This document shows, piece after piece, positions 11,641 through 45,155 of a stretch of DNA of 64,000 nucleotides. The notes under the pieces are model-generated. The model saw only the letters and a program-made list of their open reading frames with translations, searched no databases and was not told the origin of the DNA. Source of the DNA: Hyaloraphidium curvatum. Taxonomy: Eukaryota > Monoblepharomycota > Hyaloraphidiomycetes > Hyaloraphidiales > Hyaloraphidiaceae. The translations under genes and the position numbers were made by a program. The stretch covers positions 434,001-498,000 of the forward strand of contig JAIVFI010000028.1 in assembly GCA_025558095.1 (NCBI GenBank), in the 5' to 3' direction. How positions within the stretch are numbered: the stretch's first letter is position 1; the number at the start of each line of letters is the position of its first letter.

Positions 11641-12595
11641 ATGATTCTCTTCGGCAGCTCTTCCCGCACCGACTCCTCCAACCCGGCCGATGCTAGCGCC
11701 ACCAACCTGCACCCCGCCGCGGCCGCCGTCGACCTGTCCAAGGTCAGCCGCCTCGTGCTCAAGGAGAAGCCGGACTGGACCGAGGCCCGCATCGACGCGG
11801 CCGTGGCCGAGTACCGCCGGTTCGCCACGCTCGCGGCCGCGGGCGTGCCGATGCCGCCCTGCCTCGACGTGGACGAGATCTGGTGCGTCGCCTTGCATCG
11901 ATCTGCCCCGACATTGTCATAACTCCTCCGTTGACAGGCACGCCCACATCCTCCACACGATCGACTACGCCGCCTTCTCCGCGGCCCTCCTCGGCCCCGG
12001 ATCCTTCCTCCACCACATCCCTGCCGACCCCGAGGACACCCCCGCGGAGCAGCGCGAGGCTATGAAGGGCGGCTACGCCGCCGGCCTCGCCGCGTACAGG
12101 GAGCGGTTCGGCGCCGAGCCGCACGCGATCTGGGGCGCCGAGATGCCCGAGGAGGCCGACGCGAACTGCGCTCCGTGCCTGTACAAGGCCGAGGAGAGCG
12201 TCGTGCCAGCGCAGGATAGCCAGGCGGCCTTTTGCTTCCCGCCGCCCTGCTTCTCCAAGGCATCGCTCGCAGAGCCCGCCGAGCGCGGCGGGGCTCTCTG
12301 CCTTCCCATCAGGGCCGCCCCCGGCGGGGCCCTCTGCATCCCCAGGGATGCCGCGCGCGAGGCCTTCTGCATGCCAAAAAACGCTCCCCGCGACGCCTTC
12401 TGCATCCCCAAGACCGCCCCCCGCGACGCCTTCTGCATCCCTAAGGCCGCCTCGCGCGACGCCTTCTGCATCCCGAAGGCCGCCTCGCGCGAGGCCTTCT
12501 GCATGCCGAAAACCGCCCCCCGCGATGCCTTCTGCATCCCAAAGGCCGCTTCCGGCCAGGCCTTCTGCATGAGCATCCACCCGGCACAGGCCTGA
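11641..12595 (+). CDS. GRDP-like dispersed family, copy A (33-bp repeat tail)
   Basis: Exons 11641-11882 and 11938-12595 encode 299 residues. The shared domain (about residues 20-165) runs from LHPAAAAVDLSKV through EYRRFATLAAAGVP, CLDVDEIW and HAHILHTIDYAAFSAALLG to FLHHIPADPED and CAPCLYKAE. This DEIWHAHILHT...FLHH pattern resembles GRDP-like (DUF1399) proteins; function unknown. The 55-bp intron splits the Trp codon of DEIW, as in the other five copies. The tail carries cysteine every 11 residues in units such as DAFCIPKAASR, ten AFC/ALC motifs in all. No signal peptide or membrane segment is visible, so it is probably intracellular. It is the longest-tailed copy here. Confidence 0.75.
12353..12583 (+). 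repeat. In-frame 33-bp coding minisatellite, seven units
   Basis: The string GCCTTCTGCAT recurs at 12362, 12395, 12428, 12461, 12494, 12527 and 12560, exactly 33 bp apart. Each unit encodes 11 residues of the form (R)(D/E)AFC(I/M)PK-A-. Units alternate between two or three variants, suggesting slippage or unequal exchange. It lies wholly inside the tail of copy A and keeps frame. Confidence 0.9.
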
Positions 12596-12706
12596 TGCGC
12601 GCACTCGTTCTGCATTGCAGGCGCGCAGAGGGCGTGAGCCGGCGTCGCGCGCGGGGGGGGGGGATGAGGGGGAGGGAATCCGGGCAAAAGCTCGTGTATG
12701 TAGTGC

Positions 12707-12740
12707 GATTCCATTTCGATATCCAGTTGATCCAAAATCA
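12707..12740 (+). promoter_or_regulatory. Conserved 3' element after copy A
   Basis: The sequence GATTCCATTTCGATATCC followed by AGTTGATCCAA lies about 110 bp after the stop. Copies B, D, E and F have a close match at a similar place. It may be a polyadenylation or termination signal. Confidence 0.4.
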
Positions 12741-12778
12741 TTCTGTTTTCCGTACGCTGATCGGCGGACCGCGTGCCG

Positions 12779-13960
12779 TCAACGGTAGATCGGCGCGTAA
12801 AAGGTCCGCATCGAGTCCAAGTCGCCAAACACGGTGCAGATGAACCGCAGCACGTCATTCTCCAGCGAGAAAACCCCCTGGAACACGAAGATGGGGTTCT
12901 CCAGGACGATCGATGCCGCGGCGGCGGTCTCCCCCCGCGACTCGACCGCCTCTGCCAGGCTCCCGAACGTGCCGGCCGATCCCGCCAGCCCCCGCGGCAG
13001 CAGCGAGGATACGAACGCCAGCGACTGCGCGTCGGGCGGCGTGTCGAGCCTGGTCTGCAGCAGGGACAGCAGCGCGCCGGCGAAGCCGCGCCTCCCGACG
13101 GCCACGTCCGTGACCGCGGCCTCCCACCGCGAGAAAGGGCCGTGGATCCTCCGCAGCAGCCTCTCCAGCCCCTCGTCCTCCCACGTTTTCACGGCGATGC
13201 GGATGTGGTGCCGCGCATGCCGGAAGGCGGGGCTGTTGCGCGGCCGCGCGTCCACGTCGACGGAGAAGCCCGCCATCCCCGCCAGCCGCACCGCAAACAG
13301 GCACGCGGGGTCAAAGTCGTACGGGCTGAGCCGGTCCTCGGGCAGGTTGATCCGGACGTACTCCGCCGCCGGGTCCGGGTGCGCGGCGCCCGCGGGGTGG
13401 ACCGCCCGCACGAGGCCCGCGTCGAGGGCGGCCAGCAGCCGCGGCGTGTCCGAGAGGTAGACCTCGCACGGGCCACCTTCACCGCGCAGGGGGTGCCCGC
13501 GCATGTCCATGCCGTCGTCGTCGCGCTGTCCCCGCACGGAAAGGACGCGCTCGATGGGCGGCGTCTCGTCCGACGGCTCCTCCAGCGACTCGGCCAGCGC
13601 GTCCAGCCCGTAGAACAACGCATCGTCCCTCAGCATCGCCCTCTCCGGCGCTCCCGGCGGCGGCAGCGGCTCCCTCCCGGGCACGGAGTACCCCCTCAGC
13701 AGCGGGTCGACGTACTTCCGGAACAGCTCGGGGTCGCGGTCCAGGAGGAACGACGACGGAGGGGTGCGGCCGGCGTTCAGCGGGTGCGAGGGGGAGAAGT
13801 GCGGGGCGAAGATGCTGTCCGGGAAGGAGGCGAGGGTCCCGCGGAGGTAGGCGAACGAGGGGCCCTGCACGAAGCGGATCGAGACGGTGTCGGGTTCCCG
13901 CGACGGGGAGGGGGCGCGGGGCGCGGGCGCCGGGAGGCCGCCATCGGCGTCGATTTCCAT
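12779..13960 (-). CDS. BTB/T1 (KCTD-like) domain protein
   Basis: A single-exon gene of 393 residues. After a Pro-rich start, a T1-type BTB domain spans about residues 25-120: SIRFVQGPSFAYLRGTLASF, then SFLLDRDPELFRKYVDPLLR, which is the hallmark FLIDRDP...F..IL..LR strand-helix of the potassium-channel-tetramerisation family. The rest has no recognisable domain. Family members without channel segments usually act as Cullin-3 adaptors or oligomerisation modules; no membrane segment is visible, which fits that role. It is convergent with copy A. Substrate unknown. Confidence 0.7.
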   Translation of the reverse strand: MEIDADGGLPAPAPRAPSPSREPDTVSIRFVQGPSFAYLRGTLASFPDSIFAPHFSPSHPLNAGRTPPSSFLLDRDPELFRKYVDPLLRGYSVPGREPLPPPGAPERAMLRDDALFYGLDALAESLEEPSDETPPIERVLSVRGQRDDDGMDMRGHPLRGEGGPCEVYLSDTPRLLAALDAGLVRAVHPAGAAHPDPAAEYVRINLPEDRLSPYDFDPACLFAVRLAGMAGFSVDVDARPRNSPAFRHARHHIRIAVKTWEDEGLERLLRRIHGPFSRWEAAVTDVAVGRRGFAGALLSLLQTRLDTPPDAQSLAFVSSLLPRGLAGSAGTFGSLAEAVESRGETAAAASIVLENPIFVFQGVFSLENDVLRFICTVFGDLDSMRTFYAPIYR

Positions 13961-21808: not shown

Positions 21809-22828
21809 ATGTTCCGCGCTGCGGCGGCACCGAAGCGCGTCCTCGCGAAGTGTCTCCCCGTCCCGGTTCCACGCTTCGAACGCATTCGCCACTTCTCCGC
21901 GAGCGACCGCCCCGCCGTATCCCGCTTCTTCCACATCAACGTCACCGTGTCCAATATGGACCGCGCCGTATCCTTCTACTCCTCCCTCGGCTTCCGCAAG
22001 ACGGAGCTCGTCGCCCCCTCCGGCGCCTCCATCGCCCCGCACCTCGGCATCGACGTCCGCGCGCTCAAGGCATGCATCATGCTCCCCGCCGCCGCCGACG
22101 GCCCGATGCTGGACCTCGTCGAGTTCGTGGACCCGCCGGCGGGGGAAGGACCGTACCCGCACGCGGGGCACATCGGGGCGAGCAGGGTATGCCTGGAGAC
22201 GTGGGACCTGGATGCTGCAATGGGACTGCTCAAGAAGGAGGGCGCCAAGTTCGCGGGGCCGGACGTCACCTACGCGACGCCGCTGGGGGAGCACAAGCGG
22301 ACCGCGATGTTCTTCGATCCGGAAGGGACGATGCTGCAGTTCATCGCGCCAGTGGATGCCCAGCGGGCGGATGGACGCGCGCGGCGGTTCTACCACCTGA
22401 ACCTCAACGTGGCGGAAATGGACAGGTCCGTCGAATTCTACCGTGCGCTCGGGTTCGAGGTCCTGGGCGACATCGAGGTGGAGAACGAAGCGTTGGGGGT
22501 GCCGATGGGGATCAAGGCGCGGAAGTTGCGGGCCGCCTTCCTCAGGATCAGGGGAGACGACGGGGGCATGATCCTGGACCTCGTCCGCTTCGCCCCACCA
22601 TGGATTACCGAGCCGTACCGGCAAGCAAACAGCCTGGGCATATCGAGGTTTGCGCTCTGGGCTCCGGACATTGGAAGGGCGCTGGAGGTCGCGGAGGGAG
22701 CGGGCGGCAGGACGGTCGCGGACCCATTCAGGTTTCCCGGCCCCGGTGGGCAGTTGACGGACACGGTGATGGTGCGCGATCCGGACGGAATCTTTGTGCA
22801 GTTCTTCGCGGCGGCGTCGGATGCTTGA
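21809..22828 (+). CDS. Two-domain VOC (glyoxalase/dioxygenase fold) protein, likely mitochondrial
   Basis: A single-exon gene of 339 residues. The N-terminus (MFRAAAAPKRVLAKCLPVPV) resembles a mitochondrial presequence. Two VOC domains follow: FFHINVTVSNMDRAVSFYSS to FFDPEGTMLQFI, and FYHLNLNVAEMDRSVEFYRA to VRDPDGIFVQFF. The fold is secure from the repeated H-x-N-V...F-Y...DP-(E/D)-G pattern. The closing residue that is usually a metal-binding Glu (DPDGxxxE) is Gln in both copies, so classical glyoxalase I chemistry is doubtful. Substrate unknown. Confidence 0.8.
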   Translation: MFRAAAAPKRVLAKCLPVPVPRFERIRHFSASDRPAVSRFFHINVTVSNMDRAVSFYSSLGFRKTELVAPSGASIAPHLGIDVRALKACIMLPAAADGPMLDLVEFVDPPAGEGPYPHAGHIGASRVCLETWDLDAAMGLLKKEGAKFAGPDVTYATPLGEHKRTAMFFDPEGTMLQFIAPVDAQRADGRARRFYHLNLNVAEMDRSVEFYRALGFEVLGDIEVENEALGVPMGIKARKLRAAFLRIRGDDGGMILDLVRFAPPWITEPYRQANSLGISRFALWAPDIGRALEVAEGAGGRTVADPFRFPGPGGQLTDTVMVRDPDGIFVQFFAAASDA

Positions 22829-22926
22829 GTTCGTTGCTGCCGTGCCAATGCGTTGAGGCTTCTCTTGTGTGCGGCTCCACGGACTGGGGAAAGCAGCGGT
22901 TCGCGAAAGAAGTGAATGACACAGTA

Positions 22927-22957
22927 TTCATTGTATCGACTGGATATTGATGGAATC
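22927..22957 (-). promoter_or_regulatory. Conserved 3' element after copy B
   Basis: Read on the minus strand it is GATTCCATCAATATCCAG followed by TCGATACAATGA, about 45 bp beyond the stop. It matches the elements after copies A, D, E and F. Confidence 0.4.
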
Positions 22958-22966
22958 AAGAACATC

Positions 22967-23013
22967 ACAATTCGAAGCTCAGGCCTGCATCACATTCGAA
23001 GCTCAGGCCTGCA
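22967..23013. repeat. Short direct repeat over the copy B stop
   Basis: ATTCGAAGCTCAGGCCTGCA occurs twice in tandem (first copy with one extra A), so the last codons and stop of copy B are duplicated just downstream. This looks like a local slippage event. Confidence 0.7.
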
Positions 23014-23927
23014 CCGCGGGCGCCATGAAGCACAGGGCCTGGTTGCCCCGCGCCGCGGGCGCCGCGAGGCCGTAGCCGCAGAAGGCCTGCCGGGGGGCGC
23101 CCGAAATGCCGAAGCCGCAGAAAGCCTGCTTCGAGTCCGCGGGCTTGGGCTCCCCGCGGCCGGCGGCCCTGATGGGGCTGCAGAGGGCCACGCCGGTCGC
23201 GGCAGCCTGGTTGCTGAACGCAAAACAGGGCACGCATCCGGCCTTTTCGGCCTTGTAGAGACAGAGCGCCTTGCCGGAGTCCGCGGCCTTCGGTTGGAGG
23301 CAGAGCGCCATGCCCGCCTGCTCGGGCTTGGAAACCGAGAAGATGCAGATCGGCGCCCGGCCAGACGGCTCGGAGGGCCCGTCATTGTCCTCGGCCTTGT
23401 AAAGGCAGGGAGCGCACTCGGCGTCGGCCTCCTCGGGCAACTCTCCGCCCCACATGGCATGCGGCTCAGCGCCGAAGCGCTCCCGGTAGGCCGCGAGGCC
23501 GGCGGAGTAGCCATTCTTCATGGCCTCGCGCTGCTCTGCGGGGGTGTCCTCAGGGTCGGCCGGGATGTGGTGGAGGAAGGAGCCGGGCCCGAGGAGGGCG
23601 GCCGAGAAGGCGGCGTAGTCGATCGTGTGCAGGATGTGGGCGTGCCTGTCAAGAAGGAGGTTAGCGGGCAATCGGAGCAGGTCGATGCGAAGAAGCTAAC
23701 CAGATCTCGTCCACGTCGAGGCAGGGCGGCATCGGCACGCCCGCGGCCGCCAGCGTCGCGAACCGGCGGTACTCTGCCACCGCCGCGTCGACCCGCTCTT
23801 CGGTCCACTGCTTCTCCTTGAGCACGCGGCGCCGGACCTTGGACAGGTCGACGGCGGCGGCGGCGGGGTGCAGGCCCGAGGCGGCGAAGGGCGAGGGCTC
23901 GGAGGTGGTGAGGTTGAAGCAGAACAT
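23003..23927 (-). CDS. GRDP-like dispersed family, copy B
   Basis: Exons 23927-23701 and 23645-23003 (minus) encode 289 residues; the 55-bp intron splits the Trp codon of DEIW. The start MFCFNLTTSEPSPFAASG precedes the shared domain. The tail has spaced cysteines: APICIFSVSKPEQAG, MALCLQPKAADSGKALCLY, GCVPCFAF, VALCSPIRAAG, then AFCGFGISGAPRQAFCGYG and ALCFMAPAVQA. It is nearly identical to copy F (45155-), including intron sequence and upstream DNA, so the two arose by recent duplication. No targeting signal. Function unknown. Confidence 0.75.
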
Positions 23928-24444
23928 TGTCGTCTGGTTCGGGGTTCGGAGAGTCGGTTGCTGTTTGGTTGCTGTCGAGTTCGATGGGGAGGCCAGGCCC
24001 GGTGAGCATCTACATATACGCGTCGCTCCGCCATGCGGATTTCGACGCGGGGCGCAGGGTTTCCGGGGAGACGTTCCGGGCGCGTGGCGGAGCGGGGCGG
24101 AGCGCTGTGCTCCTTCCGTCGAAACCCGTCCGGCGCGGCCACCCTCCCGCTTGCAATCGCAACGACATGCCTCTAAGCGGGGCATCAAATGAACGATTAG
24201 CACCTAAACGGCCTTGTTCGAGGGCCTTTGCTGAGGATTCAGACCGCATCGCCAGCAGACGGTGCCCTTGGCTGTGAACTCCATATGCCCGCGTCCTTTC
24301 AAGCCTCTAGTTGCCCACTTTACAGTGTTTCCCAGTCCCAGGAAGAAGATGAGCCGAAGATCATGAAGACCATAGTTCGCTCTGCCCGCCGCACACGCAC
24401 TCCTCTCTCCAATTCCGACCGCACGCGTGGCATCCCCGCGATCA
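23928..24444 (-). promoter_or_regulatory. Promoter of copy B, and intergenic remainder
   Basis: Reading away from the start on the minus strand: the CATCGAACTCGACAGCAACC motif, a TATA-like GTATATG at about 24011-24018, then GCATGGCGGA and the GC-rich block up to about 24110. About 210 bp match the DNA before copy F almost base for base. Bases 24131-24444 contain no gene that I can support. Confidence 0.6.
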
Positions 24445-26034
24445 TCAGTCTCCCCGCCAGAAATCGAGCTGGCGTTGCACCGGCCTCCGGATGTCGGGCC
24501 ATTGGAAGCGGTCGGCGTAGTATAGTCTGACCCAATTGCCCCCCCAGTAGTTGCTCCCCTCGGGCGACATGATAGTCGGGTACCACGCCCGGCTCCCATC
24601 CATGCTGCCTGTGAGGGTGCGCACGGATTCCCAGTAGATCCCGTCGTCCGACGCCGAGATGTGCAGGCGGTTGTCCCCTGCGCGCATCAGGTTGAGCGAT
24701 GTACACCAGGGGACAAGCAGGCGCCGAAACCTACATCCGTTGAAGATGATGACCCATTTCTCGAGCAGGACGTTCCAGTGCAGCGAGGGGTTGGATCCGG
24801 GCACCCAATCCAGCCCCGGCGCGGGCACGTACGGCCCGTACAGCCCCGGCGAGTCGAAGCCGCCGCCGTTCCACTTGAACCAGGTGTGCGGGTATGCGTT
24901 CGGGTCGTACGAGACCGCGATGCCCATTTGGTGCTCGGCGAAGATCTGCAGAAGCAAAAAGGGGGGTCAACAACACCAGCACGTCCTTCAGCCATAGAAA
25001 GACGCACCATGAGCCACCTGTTGCTTCCCCGGTCCCATGCCACGATGTGGTTGCCCGTTCCGCCGAACATGGGGCGGTAATCCGGCGGCCGGGGCAACGG
25101 GGACGAGATGATCTGGCCATAGTCGTGCCACGTGATGCCCTGGTCCCACGAATGCACCAGGCCGATCGTCTTCCACGCCGGACCGCCCGCGGGGTGGCGC
25201 GGCCAGTACCCGTCTTCGGCGTGGTAGAAGGCCATGAAGTGCTGCGCGGGGCGCGTGGCGCGTCAGAAAGCGGATTAGGCAGCGGGAAGATGAGGCCCAC
25301 GTTTGGGTTGCCGTCGGTGGGGTGCCGGTGGACGGAAATGAGCCACTTTCCTCCGTTGTCAAAGCCGCGGTAGTCTCTGCGGCCCCCGAACTTGATCGAC
25401 GTTACTCTCAGCCCGATGTATGAAGGCATACCGGATGCTTACCCAAATGTAAGGATAAGGAGTGTAAGGCACCTGGTAGCCGGACGAGTCGAGCCAACGG
25501 TCGGTTGACACGGTGCGATAGTTCTCGCAGTTGGACCCTGGGAGGGGGTCAGACCGGGTCGCCATGCGATGCAGATACGACAAAACACGAACAGAAGGTG
25601 ATCCAGCCGCCGTCGCCTGGGATGATGGTCAGGTGCGCGTCCGGGAAGACGTGGTATGCCGGGTTCTGCTTCGTGTTCTGTCACGCGGAAGGCGGGATCC
25701 CCGGTCAGTCCCCGCCCCGCATCGCACCCAAATGCACCAGATCCACGAGATCCGGGGCCACGATGCCCACCGGCACGTCGTAGGCGCCTCCGAGCGAGAA
25801 TCCCCAGTTGCGCGACGGGGCGCGGCGGTACCGGCGGTAGGGCGAGTGCGCGAAAGACAAGTTTCCCTCCGGAACGTCGTTGTCGTGCTCCATGCCCGCC
25901 GTGATCGCGGACTGCTGCCCGAAAGAGCGGCCGAAGAGCGAGAGGGCGGCGGCGCGCGGAGCGGCCAGGAGGGCGAGCGCCACCGCGAGGAGCGCGCCGC
26001 GCCGCCGGCCGGGCGCGGAGGACACGGAGGCCAT
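24445..26034 (-). CDS. Secreted beta-propeller/glycosidase-like protein
   Basis: Seven exons (26034-25738, 25677-25593, 25537-25443, 25390-25301, 25241-25008, 24945-24735, 24677-24445) give 414 residues, all phases consistent. An N-terminal signal peptide is visible (basic residues, then ALLAVALALLAAPRAAALS). Segments such as HSWDQGITWHDYGQII, MFGGTGNHIVAWDRG and LHISASDDGIYWESV have the repeating SxDxGxxW character of sialidase, GH43-like and related propeller glycosidases. The gene therefore probably encodes an extracellular carbohydrate-active or carbohydrate-binding protein. I cannot name the family or place catalytic acids. Splice models for exons 1 and 6 are the least certain. Confidence 0.6.
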
Positions 26035-26584
26035 CGCGGGGGAGTTCTCTGGCACGGGCAGGGGGCGCGCACGCCGGAATGGAATCGGCGAGTCGACAAG
26101 CGAGTTGGTGCGCAAGGGCGATCCCCTCCCGGGCATCGGCGGCTGGGTGATCGTTGGCGTTGCGCATCCTTTTCGGCTGTGGGACTCTGCGCGGCAAGAC
26201 GCCCGCTGGAGCCCGCAATTGGCCTCGCGGTTCTCAGAGTCGGCGGAGGGCCGCAAGCACCCGTCCGTGCGCGGCGAGGGAGGGCTTGCGGAGCAACCGG
26301 CTCCTCCGACCCGCTGTCATGGCGCACCCGGCCCGGACCTCGATGTAATGCCTGACATACACAGAGACCTCCCCGGCCCCACCCTAAGAGCCAACGGCAC
26401 TTTGCAGCATCGTAACTTTACTTTCCGCTGGTTTCCGGGGCTCCTTTCGCGGGATTCGCCCCACCACGCCGCCATCCCGGAACCCGGTTTCCCCGACGCA
26501 AAACTCGCTCGATCGTCCGGATCTTCAGCTACTGTCACGGACGGTGGAAGGGAGCATCCGATGTCAATCGATCCGCTTCACAAC
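26035..26584. other. Intergenic
   Basis: This lies between the propeller-like gene start and the lipase 3' end. Long frames here are shadows of GC-rich DNA. Nothing else recognised. Confidence 0.5.
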
Positions 26585-29611: not shown

Positions 29612-29754
29612 GAGGGATGTCATTCATTCCCCGTTGAACATCGTCCAATAATAGAAGAGGCAATGCACTCCGAGGCATTCCTGCCATTTTTGGTGCCGAT
29701 CGGCCGGCGAGAAGTTATGGCTTGCCGATCAGATCAGGAACGGGGGTTGCACAG

Positions 29755-29992: not shown

Positions 29993-30702
29993 ATGATGGC
30001 CACCATTTCCGCCGACTTCACCATCTCCGGCCTCCACCCCGCCGCGGCCGCCGTCGACCTCGCCAAGGTCCGCCGCCGCGTTCTCAAAGAGAAGCCGGAT
30101 TGGACCGAAGCCCGTGCCGACACCGCCGTCACCGAGTACCGCCGGTTCGCGACACTCGCGGCCGCGGGCGTGCCGATGCCGCCCTGCCGCGACGTGGACG
30201 AGATCTGGTGCGTTGCATCGCAGCACTTGGCATTCGATCGCTCCTCACCTCGAAGTGTGACAGGCACGCCCACATCCTCCACACGATCGACTACGCCGCC
30301 TTCTCGGCCGCCCTCCTCGGCCCCGGCTCCTTCCTGCACCACGTCCCGGCCGACCCGGAGGACACCCGTGCGGAGCAGCGCGAGGCCATGAAGAGCGGCT
30401 ACGCCGCCGGGCTCGCGGCGTACAAAGAGCGGTTCGGCAGCGAGCCGCACGCCATGTGGGGCGGGGAGCTGCCCGAGGAGGCCGACGCCGAGTGCGCGCC
30501 GTGCCTTTACAAGGCCGACGATTGCAAGGCCGATGATGAGGGTGCCACGGATGATAACCGCTGGCGATGCCTGGTCTGCGTCGCCAAACCCGCCAACCGG
30601 TCAGAGCCGGCTTTCTGTGGCTACAGGGCCCTGGATGCCGTCCCCACGGGGAAGCAGGGCGGTGCGGGAAAGGCGGCCGTTGCCAGGGTTCAGCAGGCCT
30701 GA
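29993..30702 (+). CDS. GRDP-like dispersed family, copy C (short tail)
   Basis: Exons 29993-30207 and 30264-30702 encode 217 residues; the 56-bp intron splits the same Trp codon. The shared domain is intact (LHPAAAAVDLAKV, CRDVDEIW, HAHILHTIDYAAFSAALLG, MWGGELPEEADAECAPCLY). The tail is short, about 60 residues, with few cysteines (CLVCVAK, PAFCGYRALD) and no repeat array. This is the most diverged tail and promoter of the six and may approximate the ancestral form. No targeting signal seen. Function unknown. Confidence 0.72.
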
Positions 30703-31008
30703 ACTTTGATGTAGTGCATTCACATTTCTGTCTCGTTGTCGAATCATCCATTCACGCCCAACATCGAAGGCCCATGGATGATTTAGCTTCGTGAGCGGCA
30801 AGAAGGACAGCAATCGGTCTGACACTGGTCACATTGGTCCAGTGAAGATGAGTCTTTCATCCTGTGCATCGGACAAGCAGCTGTAAGTCCGCATGGCATG
30901 GTTGGGCGAGCGCTTTTGTGGGACAGACAGGACAGGCGATGACCAGCGATGACCCGCCCGCACATTTCATCGTTCGGAAAGCTCCACGCGCTTTACCCAC
31001 CCGGAGAA
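30703..31008. other. Intergenic
   Basis: This holds the 3' region of copy C and the promoter of the thioesterase. The conserved 3' element of the other copies is not recognisable here. Nothing else seen. Confidence 0.5.
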
Positions 31009-32014
31009 ATGCCGTCGTTCGACGCGCTGACCGCCATCTCCCTCGAATCGCGCACCGACGCTGGCGCCGCGTTCCTCGCCTCCGTCGACCCCGCGTGGGC
31101 GCGCGGGCCGGGGCTCCCCGCGGCGGGGTCCCTCGCGAACGCGCTGCTCATCCGCGCCGCGTGCGAGACCCTCGGCCCGTCGTACCGGCCCGTCTCGCTG
31201 CTCGTGGACTACCTGGCGCCGATGCGGCTCGGGGCTCGGGTGCGCATCGCTGTGGAGGTCGCCAGGAAGGGGGCGACGATGGCGCATCTGAGCGCGAGGA
31301 TCAGCCCGGCGGAGGGCGGGGCGCCGCTCGTCCTCGCGCTCGCCGTGTTCGGCCGCGACTCGGCCAGCGCCGCCGAGATGGAGCGCGCGCAGCGCAGCCT
31401 GTATCGGGCACCGGCCGTCCCTCCGCCCCCCGACGCGGGCGGCTTCCACAGCGGGGCCGAGGGACAGTACCGCAGCATGTTCCGGACCGTCGAATGCGAG
31501 CCGGACGCGTCGATGCTGGATTCCCAGGGCCACCTCGTGCCCGGACCCGCGGCTTACTGGGTCAGATGGGGCCTGGACGAGAGCCCCGTGTCCTGGCCGA
31601 TGTTGGCGCTCATGGCGGACTTTGTGATGCCCACGCCGAAGCAAGTGGAGGAGTATTACATCGTCGGCGGCAACGGAGCAGGGGCCAAGCTGACTCCCGG
31701 TATGTCGATGCCTTGTTGATGGACCTTGTTGTGAACTGGTATCCGACTCGGCATCATTCAACAGCAACGGCCTCGTCTTCCGTGAACTTCATCCGACTGC
31801 CGAAAGGACCGTGGTTGCGCAGCTCGTACAACGTCGCGCTCAGGTCGTCGGATGTGATCCTCGAGTTCATGTGCGTGATGGTCGAGTTCCTGCCGGTGGC
31901 GATCACTGATGCCGACCGGCCTCCTTCACCAGCTGGTGGGACGAGCAAGGCGGTCCACCATGCGTGATGGGCAGGCAGACGTCGGTGCTCGCGGGATTTC
32001 AGTCCAAGGTTTAG
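31009..32014 (+). CDS. Acyl-CoA thioesterase-like (double hot-dog) protein
   Basis: Exons 31009-31699, 31765-31870 and 31933-32014 encode 292 residues. The N-terminal hot-dog domain includes ANALLIRAACETLGPSYRP and SLLVDYLAPMRLGARVRIAV. The second half has YWVRWGLDESPVSWPMLALM and ADFVMP. After splicing, SSSVNFIRLPKGPWLR and ILEFIWWDEQGGPPCVMGRQ match the closing strand and DExG...SRQ end of TesB-like thioesterases. These release CoA from acyl-CoA. No peroxisomal PTS1 is present, since the protein ends SKV. The substrate chain length is unknown. Confidence 0.75.
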
Positions 32015-32304
32015 TGTCGTAGACGGCTGCCACCGGCCCGGCAAGGTTTTGGTGCCGTCAAGGCCAACGGACATCGTAGACTCGAGGCGCGAAAGTGTCC
32101 GCACAGAAGTTCGCCATGGGACAGAAAATTGCATCATTCGCCCGTCTGAGCGGCCCGAAGGCGATGATCACGGCGAACGACTATCGTGGTCGAGTGGCTT
32201 GCCGGGTGGTCCACCCCACTCGACTGCCACGTCTCCCGAACAACAACTCACCAGCTGCGTTCAACCGACAGCCCGAGCAGCCCACTCTCCCCCAGCTACG
32301 AAAA

Positions 32305-33134
32305 ATGACGTCCATCGCTTCCATCGAGGACCTCACGCGTGGGGCAACTCCCTCCGCGCGCGCCGCCTCGCCCCCAAGCGTCCCCGCAGGGGCGCCCCCC
32401 CACGCTTCCGTTTTGGGGAGTTCCCGCCCGAGGTCGCCCGCGAGGTGCTCAAGTTCGCCGAGCCGCCCGAGCTGCTCGCCTGCGCGCGCGTCTCGAAGAA
32501 GCTGCGGGCGATGGTGCTCGACAAGGGCTTCTGGGACTTCTGGCTGGCCGCCCCGCCGACGCCGGACCGCCGCCTCGCGTGGGACGCCGCCAAACCGCTC
32601 GCAGCCGAGATGCTCGCCATCGAGCCTCACCTGCGCGTGCCCGTGGTGCTGCACCAGCACGCCTCCAAGGGCTGCACCTTCTGCGGCACGCAGCGGGTGC
32701 GCAAGGTCTACGCCCCCTGGGGATGGCGATGCTGCGGCCCGTGCAAGATGGCCCGCACCGTCGCCGAGTGGGAGCTGCCCCACGGGCTGGGCAAGGCGCA
32801 GCTCGCCGCCGCGTACCCGGCCGGCTGGGGGGAGAGGTACTCGCGGTATAACAGGCAGCGGGTCAGGTTCGACGTGTGGAGCAAAACAGACGTGGAGAGG
32901 GCGGCGAGGCGGCTGTGGAAGGTCGGGGAGGGGGAGGATCTCGTGGACAAGGCGGAGACAGGAAACGCGGCCCGCAAGGAGCTCGTGAGGGCCAAGCTGG
33001 TGGCCAGGAAGAAGTTGTCGATCAGGAAGAAGGCGGAGAAGGCGGTGTTTGCGGCGCTGGGCAGGCTGCCGCTCGACGCGGGTGAGGACGAGGTGGAAAA
33101 GTGCGTCGACGAGGTGATCGGCTCGCTGGTCTGA
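32305..33134 (+). CDS. F-box protein with zinc-ribbon-like cysteines
   Basis: The well-supported frame runs from about 32379 to the stop at 33134. It starts with an F-box (FRFGEFPPEVAREVLKFAEP, then KKLRAMVLDKGFWDFWLA). A four-cysteine module follows: CTFCGTQR and WRCCGPCKM, spaced like a small zinc ribbon. The C-terminal third is basic and helical (RKKLSIRKKAEKAVF). The N-terminus is unresolved: ATG 32305 is in another frame, and no canonical intron joins it correctly. An SCF substrate adaptor is likely. The target is unknown. Confidence 0.6.
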
Positions 33135-33341
33135 AGGCATCGTGGACCGATCCCGTTCTTTGAGCCATGTACGGCGATTTGCATGCTGGTGCTATGCAGT
33201 CTGGAGAGGGCTCGATCTGCGGCACGGCACCACGGACGACCCGGTTTAGGATGACCAGCCTTGGGGCTCGGACGCCCCGCGATCGCAGTGCAGTGTTTGC
33301 GCGTGTCCCCCACGACCACTCACCGAATATCTCGAGCCAAG

Positions 33342-34925
33342 ATGCCGCCGTCGAACGAAGACGACGCAGAAAAGGCGACCTTTGCGCCGGAGGGCGCCAC
33401 AGGGGCAGCGGACTTCCCCATTTCCGCCGCCGAGTACCTCGCGGCCGTCCCGCATTTTCCCGCGCTGCCGCCGTCGCTGAGGGGCGCCGCGCCGCCCGCC
33501 GACCGCGCCGCGGAACTGCGCGACGCGCGCCCGCTGGACAGCCGCGCGCTCCTCGACGGCCTGTCCGCCGCGCCGGCGCTGCGCTGGATCACCGTCGCGC
33601 AGCTCCGCGTGGCCCCGTTCGCCGCCCTCGCGCGCGAGCGCACCGTGGCATTCATCGCCACCGGGATCGTGGTCAACTCTCTCCCGTGGGCATTCGGGAG
33701 GGACCGCTTCGGCACCAAGCAGCTGGCGGTGGGCTACGCGACGTGGATCGCGCTCTGGCTGTGCCTGGGGATCGTGAACCCGCTGACGGCCGGGTTCCGG
33801 CGGGGCCTGGGGCTGAAGGGGCAATCGTCGGCCTCGAGGCCGAGCCTGGACGCCTCGCCGCTGGCGGGGTTGGTGCGTTGGAATCAACTCGTTGCCGACG
33901 GCGGCACCTCCCGACTCCTCCGGCACGACCCCGACGACAAGCTTTGCCCGTGCGCGCTCCCCGGTTGTTCCGGAGGCCTGTTGCGCGAGATAACGATCCT
34001 CCGGCTGCTGGAGTTTGCGTTCAAACTGACAACCGTACTGACGGTCTTCTTGTGCGGTTTCTGGACGCCCACCGTGACCCTGGCATCCGTCGTTTGGACT
34101 TCGCCGTGGGCCGCCACACTCGCTGCTCTCAATAGTGAGTTTCCCTACCCCTCGCGCTAGTCAGCCGCCTAACGATCCGGGAAGCATTTGTCCTGCTAGC
34201 GTACTCGTTTCCAAACGCCCTCTGCCGGTTCACAGGCAACGTCGGCATCTTCCGCCTCTCCGAGCGCGTATCTCACCGCGCGATGAAGCTGGCCCTCGAG
34301 GACCTGCTCCACCGGCTCTCGTCCGGCGCCGCGAATCCCTCAACCCCGATCTCGGACGAGCCCCACGCGCAGCTCCACGCGGTGTTCACCGCCGCGTGGC
34401 GCACCAGGGTCTCTGCTTTCCACACCTCCGGTAGCGTGCTGTTTGCGGCTGCAATCTGCGTGGTCATGGCCGGGATCAACATGGTGCGCGGCTTCCGCTC
34501 CCTCATCGGATCCTAACTGACACGTCCCTGTTTTCCAGATAAGTGGCTCCTGCGTGCCCTCGTTCTACATCGCCTACCTCCTCTACGTCCTCCTCTCCCT
34601 CTCCCTCTTCGACCTCCTCTCCCTCGCCGCCTCCAACGCCCAGGTGACCTCCCTCGTGGACCTGTACCTCGACGCGCGCCGCGAGATCCGCGAGCTCCCC
34701 CTCCCCGCCTCCCCCGCCCTCGCCGCGGACCTGCGGCGGCACGACGCCGCGCTGTCTTCGTACGCGGACGCGGCGCGGAGCAGGGGGCGGTTCCTCGGGT
34801 TCGCGGTGGACTACGGGGTGGTGAGGACGGTGTATGCCACGGCGCTGACGCTGGCGGTGGGGATTTGGAGCGTGCTGAGGGGGTTGGGGGTGGTGGCGAC
34901 GATGGACATCGCGTGCGGGGGGTGA
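33342..34925 (+). CDS. Multipass membrane protein, unrecognised family (paralogue 2)
   Basis: Exons 33342-34134, 34236-34483 and 34539-34925 encode 475 residues, phases consistent. Hydrophobic segments are around TVAFIATGIVVNSLPWAFG, ATWIALWLCLGIVNPL, LTTVLTVFLCGFWTPTVTLA, SGSVLFAAAICVVMAGIN, FYIAYLLYVLLSLSLFDLLS and VYATALTLAVGIWSVLRGLG. The cysteine motif DKLCPCALPGCSGGLLREI and the following WTPxVTLA segment match the gene at 28106. Unlike that paralogue it has two introns. I do not recognise the family. Localisation is probably an internal or plasma membrane; function unknown. Confidence 0.65.
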
Positions 34926-35285
34926 GCGGATGGTCCGGCCGGGGGGATCGGCTCGTTGCTCAACAGACATGTGCGAATCCCCCGGTCCGGGCATATTGCC
35001 GCGAACTTGTACACCTTGGAAGACTGGAAACAGTATATGCAGCGCGATCGAGCTAGCATACTGGTTTAGGGAGTGGCCGCCCCGGCGGGTTTCGATCGAA
35101 GTGCACAGCGCTCCGCCCCGCTCCGCCACACGTCCCGAACGTCTCCCGGGAAACCCTGCGCCCCGCGTCGAAATCCGCATGGCGGTGCGACGCGTATATA
35201 TAGACGCTCACCGGGCCTGGCCTCCCCATCGAACTCGACAGCAAACAAACAGCAAACGACCCTCCGAACCCCGAACCCGACGACA
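34926..35285 (+). promoter_or_regulatory. Promoter of copy D
   Basis: From about 35111 the conserved block GCTCCGCCACACGTCCCGAA, CGTCTCCCGGGAAACCC and CGAAATCCGCATGGCGG leads to a TATATATA box at 35194-35202, then CATCGAACTCGACAGCAAAC. This matches copies A, B, E and F. Bases 34926-35100 hold nothing recognised. Confidence 0.6.
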
Positions 35286-36193
35286 ATGTTCTGCTTCAAC
35301 CTCACCACCTCCGAGCCCTCGCCCTTCGCCGCCTCGGGCCTGCACCCTGCCGCCGCCGCCGTCGACCTGTCCAAGGTCCGGCGCCGCGTGCTCAAGGAGA
35401 AGCAGTGGACCGAAGAGCGGGTCGACGCGGCGGTGGCCGAGTACCGCCGTTTTGCGACGCTGGCGGCCGCGGGCGTGCCGATGCCGCCCTGCCTCGACGT
35501 GGACGAGATCTGGTGAGCTTCTTCTCATTTTCCTGCTCCTACTTCCTGCTAACCTCTCGCGGTGACAGGCACGCCCACATCCTGCACACGATCGACTACG
35601 CCGCCTTCTCGGCCGCCCTCCTCGGCCCCGGCTCCTTCCTCCACCACATCCCGGCCGACCCTGAGGACACCCCCGTGGAACAGCGCGAGGCGATGAAGAG
35701 CGGCTACTCTGCTGGTCTCACGGCCTACCGGGAGCGCTTCGGCGCCGAGCCGCACGCCATGTGGGGCGGAGAGTTGCCTGCGGAGGCGGACGCCGAGTGC
35801 GCGCCATGCCTTTACAAGGCCGAGGACAATGATGAGCCAGCCGAGCCGTCTAGCCCGGCGCCGATCTGCATCTTCTCGGTTTCCAAGCCCGAGCAGGCGG
35901 GCCAGGCGCTCTGCATCCAGCCCAAGGCCGCGGACTCCGGCAAGGCGTTCCGTCTCTACAAGGCCGAAAAGGCCGGATGCGTGCCCTGTTTCGCGTTCCG
36001 CGAGGAGGCCAAGACGGCGGACTCGAATCAGGCCTTCTGCGGCTTCGGCATTGCCGGCGCCCCCCGGCAGGCCTTCTGCGGGTACGGCATCGCCGGCGCC
36101 CCCCGGCAGGCTTTCTGCGGCTACGGCCTGGCGGCGCCCGCGGCGCGGAGCAACCAGGCCCTGTGCTTCATGGCGCGCGAGGTGCAGGCGTGA
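35286..36193 (+). CDS. GRDP-like dispersed family, copy D
   Basis: Exons 35286-35512 and 35569-36193 encode 283 residues with the shared intron position. It is close to copies B and F through the domain and first tail part (APICIFSVSKPEQAGQALCI, GCVPCFAFREEAKTADSNQ). It differs in having two tandem units of AFCG(F/Y)GIAGAPRQ before AFCGYGLAAPAARSNQALCF, where B and F have one. The array therefore varies in unit number between copies. No targeting signal. Function unknown. Confidence 0.75.
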
Positions 36194-36212
36194 TCTTGCC
36201 GCGGATGATGTA

Positions 36213-36240
36213 CGATTCCATCGATATCCATCGATGTTTT
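36213..36240 (+). promoter_or_regulatory. Conserved 3' element after copy D
   Basis: GATTCCATCGATATCCATCG lies about 20 bp after the stop and is the cleanest version of the motif found after copies A, B, E and F. Confidence 0.4.
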
Positions 36241-36455
36241 GCATACTGTGTCATTCTTGATTTCTCCGCCGCCGGACGTCCGAGGGATGGAGCTGGATGT
36301 AGAGGCAAGCAACCGTCGGAAAAGGGTGAAAGGGGCACGTCGATACCAACACGAGACGATCACCAATCAGCTTTAGCCCAGCGCATCTCCACATGAGACC
36401 CGCATCATTTGCTGCTCTTTCCGGCCCCCAAGCTGCTTCGGGCCTTGGCGGCTAG

Positions 36456-37303
36456 ATGGGAGATGAGGGCACCAGCCCACCCCGCCGCCAGCCAGCCGAC
36501 ACTGCCCTCGCGCCGCTGACCCCCCTTGGCACCGGCGCGATGGCGTCTCCCGAGCCGGGGCGGCGGGGGAGCACGGCGCGGCAGATGCTCTCGGCCCTCG
36601 CGGTACCTTTTTCGCGGCCCCGGGGCCGGTCCCCGTCACCGTCCCTCACACTGCCGCACCCGCGGACCGATGCGAGCCCCGGCCGCGGGCGCTCTCCCTC
36701 GCACGCGCCGATCGTCACGCGCAGCAACTCGGAGCCGCTGGCCGCGCTGCTCGCGCCGCCGCCGTCGCCGTCGCCGCACTCGGCTCCGCCCGCGCCCCGA
36801 AGGTCGTCGACCACGCCCTCCACGCTGGCGCCCGCGCCGTCGAGCTACCCCGCCGATCCGTCGCCGCCGGAGCGCGCGGAGCTGATCGCACACGGCCGGA
36901 GGCGCCGCAAGGCACATGTAGACATCGCGGTGATCGGCGTCGGCTCCGAGGGCACCGTGAAGCTGGCGCTGTGCACCGAAACCAACACAAAGGTGGCCAT
37001 CAAGAGCATCCCGCGCGTGCAGCTGCCCCCCAATGCGCCCGCCGCGACCCTCGAGGCGCGCGACGCCCGCGAGCGCGCGATCCGCAAGCGCGCGCTGGCC
37101 CTGCTGACCCACTGCGGGCACCCGCACCTCCCCGAGATCCACGAGGTCTTCGAGACGGAATCGAAGTTCTACGTCGTCGGAGAGTACTGTGCCGGCGGCG
37201 ACCTCGCCCGCTACCTCGCCTCGAGGGGGGGCATGCTCCCCGAGCCGGAAGCCGCCGGGATCGTGGCCACGCTGATTCGCGCCCTCTCTTATCTTCACGC
37301 GCA

Positions 37304-37339
<36 letters not shown>

Positions 37340-38253
37340 TCTCCTGCGCAGGGAAGACGACGTCGCCTCGATCTGCGTGGCCGATTTCGGCGAGGCCTTC
37401 GTCGGCGAAGCCCTCATCGGACCGGGCGATCCGCTCGCTGCGGGCTCGAGCGCCTCCCTCGCGGACTCGCAGATGAAAACCATGGCCGGCACCCCCTTCG
37501 TGGGCATCCCACGTCTCCCTCTGCTTTGCGCCGCTGACCTCCCGCCCGCAGTACCTCGCCCCCGAGATCGCACACGGCAACAGCTACACCTCCAAGGTGG
37601 ACCTCTGGTCCCTCGGCTGCATCGCGTACGAGCTCCTCGCCGGGCGCTCCCCCTTCTCGGACTCGCGCTCCATGGCGGAGCTCTTCTCCCGCATCGAATC
37701 CGCGCGGTACTCCCCGCCCGCGGGTGCCTCCCCCGCCGCGCTGGCTTTCCTCGCGCGGCTGCTGGACCCCGACCCCGCGCGCCGGCCCGACGCCGGGGAA
37801 GCCCTGGGCGACCCGTGGATCCGCGGCGGCATGTCCAAGCTCAAGAGGATGCAGAGCGGGTTGGAGGTGTTTTTCCGCAAGGGCACGGGGGAGGTGATGC
37901 CGGTGCACCACGCCGCGGGGGGGTGGGAACCGGGCGAGGACGGGGACGAGGAGGAACCGGGGGAAGCGGAGCGGGTGGAGATCACGGAGGTGCTCCTCCC
38001 CGGTGCCGAGCGGCTGGGGAGGCGGAATTCGGGGACCAGGGTGACGATCCGCGCCGGCGGGGTGGTGCCCGTCCTCGACGGGACGGCGGTGGGGACCGGC
38101 GGAAGGGCGCGGTGGACGCGGGGGAGGAAGCAGGTCCGGTTCGGGGACTCGGGGGTCGACGTGGAGGCGGCGGAGATGGGGTTCGCGGAGCTGAAGCTGG
38201 AGGCGGCGTGGGTGGCGGAGGACGACGAGGAGGGGGAGGAGGGGCGGAGTTGA
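36456..38253 (+). CDS. Serine/threonine protein kinase (CAMK-like)
   Basis: Exons 36456-37499 and 37552-38253 encode 581 residues. The first 150 are Pro/Ser-rich and probably disordered, with basophilic Ser sites such as RSNSEP and RGRSPS. The kinase domain begins IGVGSEGTVKLALC and has VAIKS, the catalytic HGIVHRDLKPANVLL and VADFGEAF. The intron interrupts the activation segment; splicing gives GTPFYLAPEIAHG, then VDLWSLGCIAYELLAG. The C-terminal region is acidic then basic, with RGRKQVRFGDSG, a candidate nuclear or docking signal. Subfamily and pathway are uncertain. Confidence 0.85.
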
Positions 38254-38444
38254 AAGGATGCGGGCGTTTGGACTCTGGCACGCAATCGTTGGATCTGATT
38301 CGCAGCTGTGGCATGGCATGGTGGGGCGGTCGTTGTTCGTTGTTCGTCGTTCTTGGGCGTTATTACATCTACATCGGCCTGCAGGCCAGGACCATGGGGC
38401 AGAGGATCCAGGTCCGAAAGATCGGGCATTGTAGGTATCACAGA

Positions 38445-38475
38445 TGTATTGGATCGAGTGGATATCGTCGGAATC
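38445..38475 (-). promoter_or_regulatory. Conserved 3' element after copy E
   Basis: On the minus strand it reads GATTCCGACGATATCC then ACTCGATCCAATACA, within 40 bp of the stop, matching the elements of copies A, B, D and F. Confidence 0.4.
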
Positions 38476-38483
38476 TCGCAGCA

Positions 38484-39364
38484 TCACACGGAAACCTGGG
38501 GAGCCTGCCAGCAGAAGGCCTGCTTCGAGTTCGCGGGCTTCTGGGAGACTGTATGGAAGCACAGGGCCTGCGCAGGGGCGTTGATGCAAAGGGCTGCTCC
38601 GCGAGCCTCGCGGGAAGAGGCATTGAAGCACAAGGCCTGCGCGGGCGCGTTGATGCAGAGGGCTCCCCCGCGGGAGGTAGCCATGGCGTCGCTGCCGGCG
38701 GCCTTGTTGTAGATGCAGAGGGCCGCAGGGGCGGTCGTCCAGTTGACGCAGCGCGCCATGCCCGCGTCCTTGCCGGCCGCGTTGATGCAGAGAGCCCTTC
38801 CGGACGGCTCGGCGGGCGCTGCACCGTCCTCGGCCTTGTAGAGGCAGGGAGCACACTCGGCGTCCGCCTCCGCGGGCAACTCTCCGCCCCACATGGCGTG
38901 CGGCTCGGCGCCGAACCGCTCCCGGTAGGCCGTGAGGCCGGCGGAGTAGCCGTTCTTCATGGCCTCGCGCTGCTCTGCGGGGGTGTCCTCGGGGTCGGCG
39001 GGAACGTGGTGAAGGAAGGAACCGGGCCCGAGGAGGGCGGCGGAGAAGGTGGAGTAGTCGATCGTGTGCAGGATGTGGGCGTGCCTGTCACCGCGAGAGG
39101 TTAGCAGGCATAAGGAGCAGGTCAGTGAGAAGAAGCTCACCAGATCTCGTCCACGTCGAGGCACGGCGGCATCGGAACTCCCGCGGCCGCTAGCGTGGCG
39201 AACCGGCGGTACTCGGCCACGGCCGCGTCGACGCGCTCTTCGGTCCAGTGCTTCTCCTTGAGCACGCGGCGCCGGACCTTGGCGAGGTCAACGGCGGCGG
39301 CGGCGGGGTGCAGGCCGGAGGCGGACATGTCGGCGGAGTCGTAGGCGTAGGCGAAGCAGAGCAT
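38484..39364 (-). CDS. GRDP-like dispersed family, copy E (distinct tail)
   Basis: Exons 39364-39141 and 39084-38484 (minus) encode 274 residues; the 56-bp intron splits the DEIW Trp codon. The start MLCFAYAYDSADMSASG differs from the other copies. The tail is its own type, with units such as RALCINAAGKDAG, AALCIYNKAAG, GALCINAPAQALCFN repeated twice, and a closing AFCWQAPQVSV. The spacing of (A/G)(L/F)C is kept while the residues between have changed. No targeting signal. Function unknown. Confidence 0.73.
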
Positions 39365-39957
39365 GGTCGTTCGGGGATGGTTTATCGGGTCGGTTGGGTG
39401 TTTGGTTGCTGTCGGGTTCGATGGGGAGGCCGGCGGGGTGACCGGTCATATATAGTCTCGCTGCTGAGCGCTCCGCCATGCGGACTTTCGGCGGGGGGGC
39501 GCGGGGTTCCGGGGGACGTTCGAGGACGAGTGGCGCAGCGGGCGGAGCGCCGGTGCCCCCCTTCCTCGAAGTCGACCGCTGCAGCCCCTCCCTCTTCCAT
39601 TGCATCGTTTGGCCAAAATCTAGTGATTCATTAACCTCAATCCCTTATTTGTCGAGCTCAGCTCAGCTCCGCCGTTTGGGGTGTGAAGGAGAGTGTCCGG
39701 GCTCCCGAAAGGAGCTGGCGCAGAGAACCAAGTTTTCCATCCCTCTCTATGACGCATTGCCATTGCAGTTGCGCGGGACGTCCGTTGCGCTACCACTGCA
39801 TTCACTTTCCCTTGGAGGCAGGCCTCAGAACCCCATCGGATGAATCAGTTGTGTGGCAAATCATGAGCGTCCCTGGGCTCCGCCACCGTCGGAGTCATCC
39901 ACAGCTCACACAGCTGCGATCCTGCGAATCGTGCCCCAAAGCACACACACCACACCA
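39365..39957 (-). promoter_or_regulatory. Promoter of copy E, and intergenic remainder
   Basis: On the minus strand: the CCCATCGAACCCGACAGCAA motif at about 39409-39428, a TATATATG box at about 39447-39454, GCATGGCGGAGCG, and the GC-rich block to about 39545. Bases 39550-39957 hold no gene that I can support and include the promoter of the next plus-strand gene. Confidence 0.55.
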
Positions 39958-40629
39958 ATGAACCCGTACCGCTACCCTGAACCCGGCCCGGCGGCAGCGC
40001 CGGCGCCTTCGGCCGCAGCGTGGCCCGCCGCCGCGCCGGCAATCCCGACCCCTGACTACGCGGAGCCTTCCCCGCCGCCTGGCTCCTCCCCACGCATGAC
40101 CTACTACTATGGCCAGCCCGGGTCCGACCTGGGTTATCCGGACGCATCGGGCTATACGTACGGCCCGCCTGCCTACCCGGCGCAGCCGGCGCTCCCGCCC
40201 CCGGCTTACCCCGCACATCCGGCCGACTACTACCCCCCGCAGTCGACGACCGTCGTCGTCTCCGACGGAACAGACGACGAGAGCGTGGCCGCTTCCAAGA
40301 CCCCGCCGACCAAGCGCAGCGGCTGGACATACCTTGGCATCGGTCTGCTCCTTACGATTGCCGGCGCCGCCCTGCTGGCCCTGTACGCGACCCAGCGTTG
40401 CGGATACCAGCGTTTCACATATACCTGCTATGTAGGGCTCCCTTGCCGGGCGAACGGAACCGCTACTTCGGACGTGCTGACCCGCGTTCTGCAGGAAATG
40501 GTGTCGTACCTCTACAGTGGCATCGTGTGCGTCATCTTCGCCGCCATCTTCATCGCGTGGGGTTCGTCGATCTTCTACCGCCTTTCCAAGACCGCGTCAA
40601 TCGCCCCGCAAGCGCACCAGACGAAGTAA
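39958..40629 (+). CDS. Pro-rich two-segment membrane protein, hypothetical
   Basis: A single-exon gene of 223 residues. The first 100 are Pro/Ala/Tyr-rich (YPAQPALPPPAYPAHPADYY), likely a disordered cytoplasmic tail with PPxY-like motifs that can bind WW domains. Two membrane segments follow: YLGIGLLLTIAGAALLALYA and YSGIVCVIFAAIFIAWG. The loop between them has three cysteines and an N-glycosylation site (ANGT), so it probably faces the lumen or outside. I do not recognise the family. Function unknown. Confidence 0.6.
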   Translation: MNPYRYPEPGPAAAPAPSAAAWPAAAPAIPTPDYAEPSPPPGSSPRMTYYYGQPGSDLGYPDASGYTYGPPAYPAQPALPPPAYPAHPADYYPPQSTTVVVSDGTDDESVAASKTPPTKRSGWTYLGIGLLLTIAGAALLALYATQRCGYQRFTYTCYVGLPCRANGTATSDVLTRVLQEMVSYLYSGIVCVIFAAIFIAWGSSIFYRLSKTASIAPQAHQTK

Positions 40630-43944: not shown

Positions 43945-44179
43945 CGCGATGCGCCCGCGGGAGGTAGCGGCACGTGCTGGTGGGCCGGCCGGGGCTTGTT
44001 TGTTCGACGTGTTTGGTGGAGGGGGCCGCGACCTCGGCGCGACCTCGGCGCGGCCCGCTGCTTCGGACGCCTTTCTCGCCAGATCTGCAAGCTCTGCCCC
44101 GGTTTCCCGTCTTCAGAGGACGGAGGTGTGCAGAAGAATGGACCTCTCTTTGAGCCTTGGAAGTTATAACGCACAGAAT

Positions 44180-44210
44180 GTATTGTATCGATTTGGACAT
44201 CGATGGAATC
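44180..44210 (-). promoter_or_regulatory. Conserved 3' element after copy F
   Basis: On the minus strand it reads GATTCCATCGATGTCC then AAATCGATACAATACA, about 20 bp beyond the stop, matching the elements of copies A, B, D and E. Confidence 0.4.
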
Positions 44211-44230
44211 GCACGTCATCTCGGAGCAGA

Positions 44231-45155
44231 TCATGCCTGCACCGCGGGTGCCATGAAGCACAGGGCCTGGTTGCTCCGCGCCGCGGGCGCCGCCAGGCCG
44301 TAGCCGCAGAAGGCCTGCCGGGGGGCGCCGGCAATGCCGAAGCCGCAGAAGGCCTGCTTCGAGTCCGCCGTCTTGGCCTCCTCGCGGTTGACACCCCTGA
44401 TGGGGCTGCAGAGGGCCTCGCCGGTCGCGGCAGCCTGCTTGCTGAAAGCAAAACAGGGCACGCATCCGGCTTTTTCGGCCCTGTAGAGACAGAACGCCTT
44501 GCCGGAGTCCGCGGCCTTGGGCTGGATGCAGAGCGCCTGGCCCGCCTGCTCGGGCTTGGAAACCGAGAAGATGCAGATCGGCGCCGGGCTAGACGGCTCG
44601 GCTGGCTCATCATTGTCCTCGGCCTTGTAAAGGCATGGCGCGCACTCGGCGTCCGCCTCCGCAGGCAACTCTCCGCCCCACATGGCGTGCGGCTCGGCGC
44701 CGAAGCGCTCCCGGTAGGCCGTGAGACCAGCAGAGTAGCCGCTCTTCATCGCCTCGCGCTGCTCCACGGGGGTGTCCTCAGGGTCGGCCGGGATGTGGTG
44801 GAGGAAGGAGCCGGGGCCGAGGAGGGCGGCCGAGAAGGCGGCGTAGTCGATCGTGTGCAGGATGTGGGCGTGCCTATCAAGAAGGAGGTTAGCGGGCAAT
44901 CGGAGCAGGTCGATGCGAAGAAGCTAACCAGATCTCGTCAACGTCGAGGCAGGGCGGCATCGGCACGCCCGCGGCCGCCAGCGTCGCAAAACGGCGGTAC
45001 TCGGCCACGGCCGCGTCGACCCGCTCTTCGGTCCATTGCTTCTCCTTGAGCACGCGGCGCCGGACCTTGGACAGGTCAACGGCGGCGGCGGCGGGGTGCA
45101 GGCCGGAGGCGGCGATGGGCGAGGGCTCGGAGGTGGTGAGGTTGAAGCAGAACAT
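44231..45155 (-). CDS. GRDP-like dispersed family, copy F (near twin of B)
   Basis: Exons 45155-44929 and 44873-44231 (minus) encode 289 residues, the same length as copy B. The two differ at scattered positions only, for example PSPIAASG against PSPFAASG. Introns are the same length and almost identical. Tail units are AICxFS-type then QALCIQPKAADSGKAFCLY, GCVPCFAF, EALCSPIRG, AFCGFGIAGAPRQAFCGYG and ALCFMAPAVQA. Open frame and splice sites are intact, so the copy is probably expressed. Function unknown. Confidence 0.75.

Follow-up and report, generated by a model that had tools for sequence, protein, structure and literature searches.

The 64,000-nucleotide stretch of the Hyaloraphidium curvatum genome analysed here (contig JAIVFI010000028.1, positions 434,001 to 498,000; hereafter the window) contains six copies of a gene, A to F, whose protein products join a nearly constant head to a cysteine-bearing tail that changes from copy to copy, raising the question of what a protein built in this manner does. 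Chitin synthase matches on four contigs of the host genome point to a fungus. While the original prediction described a family of six, which holds for the window, a search of the whole host genome (31.9 Mb, 55 contigs) brought the total to eight, with the two extra copies, G and H, located on contig C46.

Spliced gene models show that the starts of all six window copies had been placed correctly. On the forward strand, copy A (299 aa; 11641..12595) consists of exon 1 (11641-11882), an intron (11883-11937) and exon 2 (11938-12595), with its tail, from approximately position 12164, comprising at least seven AFC(I/M)PK units of 11 residues each. Copy C (217 aa; 29993..30702; intron 30208-30263) has a shortened tail from approximately 30490 with one AFC unit, while the tail of copy D (283 aa; 35286..36193; intron 35513-35568) starts at approximately 35795 and includes two 13-residue AFCG(F/Y)GIAGAPRQ intervals. 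The copies on the reverse strand are B (289 aa; 23003..23927; intron 23700-23646), with a tail from approximately 23419 down to 23003, E (274 aa; 38484..39364; intron 39140-39085), with ALCINAPAQ units from approximately 38858, and F (289 aa; 44231..45155; intron 44928-44874), with a tail from approximately 44647. The unit types expected in A and E and the near absence of units in C were thus found as described, and the 13-residue unit ascribed to B, D and F corresponds to an AFCG..PRQ interval that occurs once in B, once in F and twice in D. The original prediction of a common intron also stood: each of the six genes contains one phase-2 intron of 55-56 nt that interrupts the Trp codon in DEIW|HAHILHT, and G and H share this splice site, with an intron of 65-66 nt. 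The constant head was likewise recovered, with its approximately 150 residues being ~83-99% identical among copies and ending in a conserved ADA(E/N)CAPC junction (ADADCA in G and H). The reading frames are intact in all eight copies and the upstream DNA, with its TATA-like run, is conserved, which, together with the conserved intron, rules out decayed repeats. A long open frame bearing a kinase (36456-39104, forward strand) overlaps the tail of copy E (38484-39364, reverse strand); the true kinase gene probably terminates before this or is spliced.

The stretch upstream of copy A (11502..11640, forward strand) holds a TATA-like TATATATA run and has counterparts before B, D, E and F (83-100% identity over ~175-200 nt), while that upstream of copy D (35103..35285, forward strand) is part of a repeat common to B and F. 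Both stretches may act as promoters. The DNA downstream of the copies shows no clear relationship. Copies B and F are 100% identical over the 200 nt upstream, 98% in the intron and 91% in the tails, and D and F share 99% identity in the second-exon head and 79% in the intron; these segment identities show a patchwork exchange among copies. On C46 (positions 22000-40000; loci L011 and L012), G and H point in opposite directions and each diverges from an SDR-like ORF, while glycosyltransferase-like ORFs that resemble one another flank the two on their outer sides (all named by eye); this arrangement is an inverted duplication.

The head had been likened to GRDP-like (DUF1399) proteins, an assignment which stands at the profile level, by way of bacterial relatives, but not at the Pfam cut-off for the four copies scanned: A, B, C and E score 14.1-17.2 bits against PF07173 (gathering cut-off 22.7; Pfam, whole protein). 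The part of the head profile that matches takes in WHAHIL and the residues preceding it. A bacterial relative (L092) scores 28.5 bits, above the cut-off, and alignment by hhalign of the window heads with 58 bacterial heads, whose first member exceeds it, gave a probability of 99.8% (E 1.8e-27). Membership of the plant GRDP1/2 proteins is marked by a glycine-rich C-terminal domain and an RNP-1-like RNA-binding motif; a glycine-rich C-terminus is found in Arabidopsis GRDP1 and GRDP2 (PMC4299439), whereas the window copies end in Ala/Cys-unit tails. Nothing was recovered for the family in PHROGs or NCBIfam, and when the head was compared with the PDB by sequence and by fold, no hit was credible (best Foldseek E 1.3). 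The best VIA match, a phycocyanin with Z 3.2, is likewise not credible, which does not imply a new fold.

The tails follow a simple grammar. The pattern [AGS][FYWLM]C fits 56 of the 82 tail Cys residues in the eight copies, compared to a mean of 5.3% and a maximum of 12.6% in 2,000 residue shuffles, and Ala occupies the second position before 72 of the 82. Lys or Arg is present in 45/48 inter-unit spacers (shuffles: mean 72%, maximum 86%), and the tails comprise 23% Ala and 8% Gly. The spacing of units ranges from 6 to 42 residues, mostly 9-17, rather than the 10-15 originally described. A flexible thiol array for metal binding (Cu, Zn, Fe-S) or redox buffering, with the number of units tuning its capacity and the head His residues (WHxH, HH) possibly adding ligands, would leave units free to turn over as long as Cys is retained. 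Cys is indeed the constant element of every unit, the head His residues are invariant across the bacterial homologues and window copies, and denser Cys/His tails, such as CxDHACHVPTSCACRxxGACK, occur in other subtypes. However, single tail Cys residues spaced 9-17 residues apart do not resemble the compact metal motifs known, each Cys is preceded by a residue just as constant, which metal binding does not require, and no metal-transport gene occurs among the neighbours examined. We consider a metal or redox function doubtful.

The predicted union of a constant head with a changing cysteine tail is supported, as the open (A)(F/L)C tails vary in both unit number and sequence. The tails of B, D and F align well (90-92% nucleotide identity), while those of A, C, E and G/H have no reliable alignment with them; even between B, D and F whole units differ, demonstrating gain and loss of whole units between near-identical copies. 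The diversifying selection proposed for the tails was, however, not borne out. Tail dN/dS is 0.40-0.49 in the reliably aligned pairs (B-F, D-F, B-D and G-H), for which the head values are 0.04-0.13, and 0.47-0.89 in the remaining pairs, where it rests on doubtful tail alignment; no pair exceeds 0.89, and this range (0.40-0.89) lends no support to positive selection on the tails. Purifying selection on the head (0.04-0.49 over all pairs) is strong, and the tails, with dN/dS values of 0.4-0.9, show relaxed constraint. Such values would suit proteins in which only the head matters and the tail, under weak constraint, is an appendage that changes length by slippage and gene conversion, as would the patchwork exchange among copies, the nearly unit-free copy C with its frame still open, and the existence of tail-less bacterial relatives. 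Pure drift is nevertheless disfavoured, since it predicts neither an A-[FYLW]-C grammar kept far above chance although the residues between change, nor the recurrence of this grammar in distant bacteria, nor the link there between tail type and neighbouring gene, and an inert tail is as such improbable.

Bacterial homologues were collected by tblastn on plasmids and a scan of GTDB genomes (80 loci). The architecture of a head plus Cys units spans several bacterial phyla and one chitin-synthase-bearing eukaryote. Within the literature searched no paper describing it was found, in agreement with the statement that such a tail had not been described for GRDP-like proteins, but the tail grammar is common among the bacterial ones. 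The unannotated AYC-repeat proteins of Cupriavidus, Trinickia, Caldimonas, Herbaspirillum and others share with the window copies a homologous head, A-(aromatic)-C units, basic spacers and a variable unit number, whereas their heads are only ~30-40% identical to the window heads and the residue before Cys is mostly Tyr, rather than the Phe/Leu of the window tails. Examples are AAYCAVSASGK in Trinickia, PAYCARMAKAEE in Cupriavidus, AAFCVREPEQ in Caldimonas and AAYCFREPKKAD in Aquabacterium, and the units AFCVRKPEQ of Caldimonas and AFCSSPGTPRK of locus L156 resemble AFCIPKAASRD of copy A and AFCGYGIAGAPRQ of copy D. Other bacterial homologues carry short SCxPQRCP ends, CHxPTxCACRxxGACK-like ends, other kinds of tail, or none. 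A Streptomyces relative aligns across the head-tail junction (EADAECAPC / EGAADCSQC). The head stands at the very start of the bacterial proteins, and AlphaFold models the Caldimonas protein as a confident helical head followed by a disordered tail. Two features mark the CHASE-linked AYC-repeat family as grouped here: a homologous head ending in A-[FYWLM]-C units, which the window copies possess, and a CHASE sensor gene alongside. Judged by their sequences, the window and bacterial proteins would belong to a two-part family with members in bacteria and, at the least, in this eukaryote. In a head tree built from few columns and largely unresolved, the window family sits apart on a long branch, no bacterial sister being well supported, and the AYC-type heads, which are not one resolved clade, do not include the window heads. 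As the latter do not nest with AYC-type heads, the window and bacterial tails may be convergent. Recent transfer from repeat-tailed bacteria was rejected on the same lack of nesting, within the limits of this tree.

The genomic neighbourhoods of the bacterial genes differ with the tail. A CHASE-domain protein is encoded alongside the AYC-type loci of Burkholderiales in 19/19 cases and alongside the other loci in 0/66. The former count takes related species as separate, and the existence of two arrangements of the genes and of two output modules indicates fewer independent cases, perhaps three to five; the viral locus L112, whose SMCDG-like units fit the loose pattern and which has no CHASE gene, was kept outside both counts. 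The partner is either a CHASE-PAS/GAF-GGDEF-EAL protein encoded directly upstream or a CHASE-(PAS)-HisKA_3-HATPase kinase encoded divergently or adjacently. Among separately drawn genomes of the same order, a CHASE gene lies beside 3/3 repeat-tailed loci and 0/2 without repeats, with a sixth locus, at a contig end, left unscored. CHASE genes are infrequent, at roughly 150 matches across 100 genomes, and we estimate the chance of one falling within 6 kb at the order of 0.5% per locus. The CHASE sensor is kept while the output module changes between the unrelated GGDEF-EAL and histidine kinase forms, a pattern that speaks for a link with the ligand being sensed.

Modules of c-di-GMP signalling often control matrix production. 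Their presence as neighbours in many bacteria, along with the repetitive, disordered and Ala-rich nature of the tail, would accord with a tail that acts as a structural or cross-linking polymer at the cell surface or in the matrix, linked via Cys or aromatic residues. However, hydropathy shows neither a signal-peptide-like N-terminus (10-residue mean of 1.07-1.38 within the first 35 residues) nor a transmembrane-like stretch in the window copies, and the bacterial homologues begin directly with the head, rendering such a polymer very improbable. Locus L160 harbors tandem head-plus-repeat genes (5742-6878 and 7311-8138) adjoining one CHASE gene and differing in their units (AYCAGPHIGK and AFCAGPH, respectively). 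On the pSym plasmid of Cupriavidus necator (L048), a head without repeats lies beside a partial EAL match, with no CHASE match, and looks like a decayed relative of a repeat-tailed locus.

Genes of the PQRCP kind lie in a conserved row with those for a SAM methyltransferase, a TauD-family dioxygenase and a UvrA-like ABC protein, while one Streptomyces CSQC homologue has a gene annotated as radical SAM ~1 kb upstream. By analogy, both settings resemble peptide-maturation loci. No obvious maturation enzyme adjoins the bacterial AYC-repeat loci. The methyltransferase/TauD/large UvrA-like row follows the SCxPQRCP head gene at L034 (5908-12184) and at L037, L043, L055, L060, L068, L071, L075 and L083, in several phyla, and resembles a biosynthetic gene row not described before, possibly one that includes self-protection. 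At L022 (4376-5707), L024 (4378-5706) and L025 (3390-4706), a head gene without a Cys tail is directly followed by one for a multi-pass membrane protein of ~440 aa, which by eye looks like a transporter.

The folded head, disordered Cys-unit tail, basic spacers, unit turnover and biosynthetic or sensory neighbours are best accommodated by a carrier joined to its own substrate. The small, all-helical GRDP-like head would act in a leader-like way, as carrier or recognition module, and the unstructured tail, with its short Ala-(Phe/Tyr/Leu/Trp)-Cys units and a basic residue in most spacers, as a multi-unit substrate. The tail Cys, perhaps with the residue before it, would be chemically modified and the units probably then released at the basic spacer residues, as in a multi-core, RiPP-like precursor, with the product acting as a signal or effector. 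We hold this reading tentatively, at somewhat less than even confidence. In its favour, we count the grammar, which lies far above chance and recurs in bacterial homologues, and the bacterial subtypes set in loci like those for peptide maturation or sensing. Against it, we count the host searches, the AYC loci without an adjoining maturation enzyme and the possible convergence of the tails. Among the window neighbours with Pfam matches (BTB-like, alpha/beta hydrolase, kinase and UvrD-like) no modifying enzyme was found, none of the eight tails contains a dibasic (KR, RR or KK) site, and the whole host genome yielded no CHASE match, although introns could hide one. UstYa also had no match in the host genome, which is uninformative since the control likewise matched nowhere. 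Since the host genome yielded neither an enzyme nor a secretion route or receptor, and the last steps are inferred, we propose for the host, with the same reserve, that the proteins work like multi-unit precursors, and do not claim RiPP identity itself.

Like the KEX2-processed repeat proteins of fungi (PMC6339444), the window proteins combine a constant part with a variable number of near-identical short units, but their tails are devoid of dibasic sites and hydropathy reveals no evident signal peptide; the former rules out a KEX2-type precursor. The precursors of fungal RiPPs such as dikaritins (ustiloxins and phomopsins; PMC6339444) likewise carry repeated variable cores behind a constant part, whereas the constant part of the window copies is a folded domain of ~130 residues, around which no enzyme cluster was found. 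The repeat-tailed design, consistently found next to a CHASE sensor in bacteria, suggests an undescribed kind of peptide-precursor-like protein, and if the tails are modified peptides, they would define a new class of precursors that have a folded leader and can be recognised by sequence alone. A narrower proposal, to which we assign a low probability, is that the tails are undescribed Cys-centred, multi-copy peptide signals and the bacterial CHASE proteins their receptors, with precursor and receptor staying together while the output module changes, and with the eukaryote keeping the precursor kind as an expanded family. To our knowledge, the bacterial ligands of CHASE domains are mostly unknown, and if the linkage joins ligand and receptor, the tails would provide candidate ligands, testable in ordinary soil bacteria.

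Further tails were observed beyond these loci. CxDHACHxPTxCACRxxGACK ends are found at L030, L035, L044, L046, L049, L051, L054, L057 and related Pseudomonas/Oceanospirillales loci, a subtype with its own conserved neighbours, which have no Pfam match. The head also occurs on viral contigs and in a phage record (L112 2929-3588, L027 1477-2091, L109-L111 and L113), with SMCDG-like or Gly/Cys-rich tails. In Azospirillum lipoferum (L020 3746-4513), the tail consists of nine near-identical ADCLREAKA units, and the gene is located downstream of one encoding a hybrid histidine kinase in which no CHASE domain was recognised.
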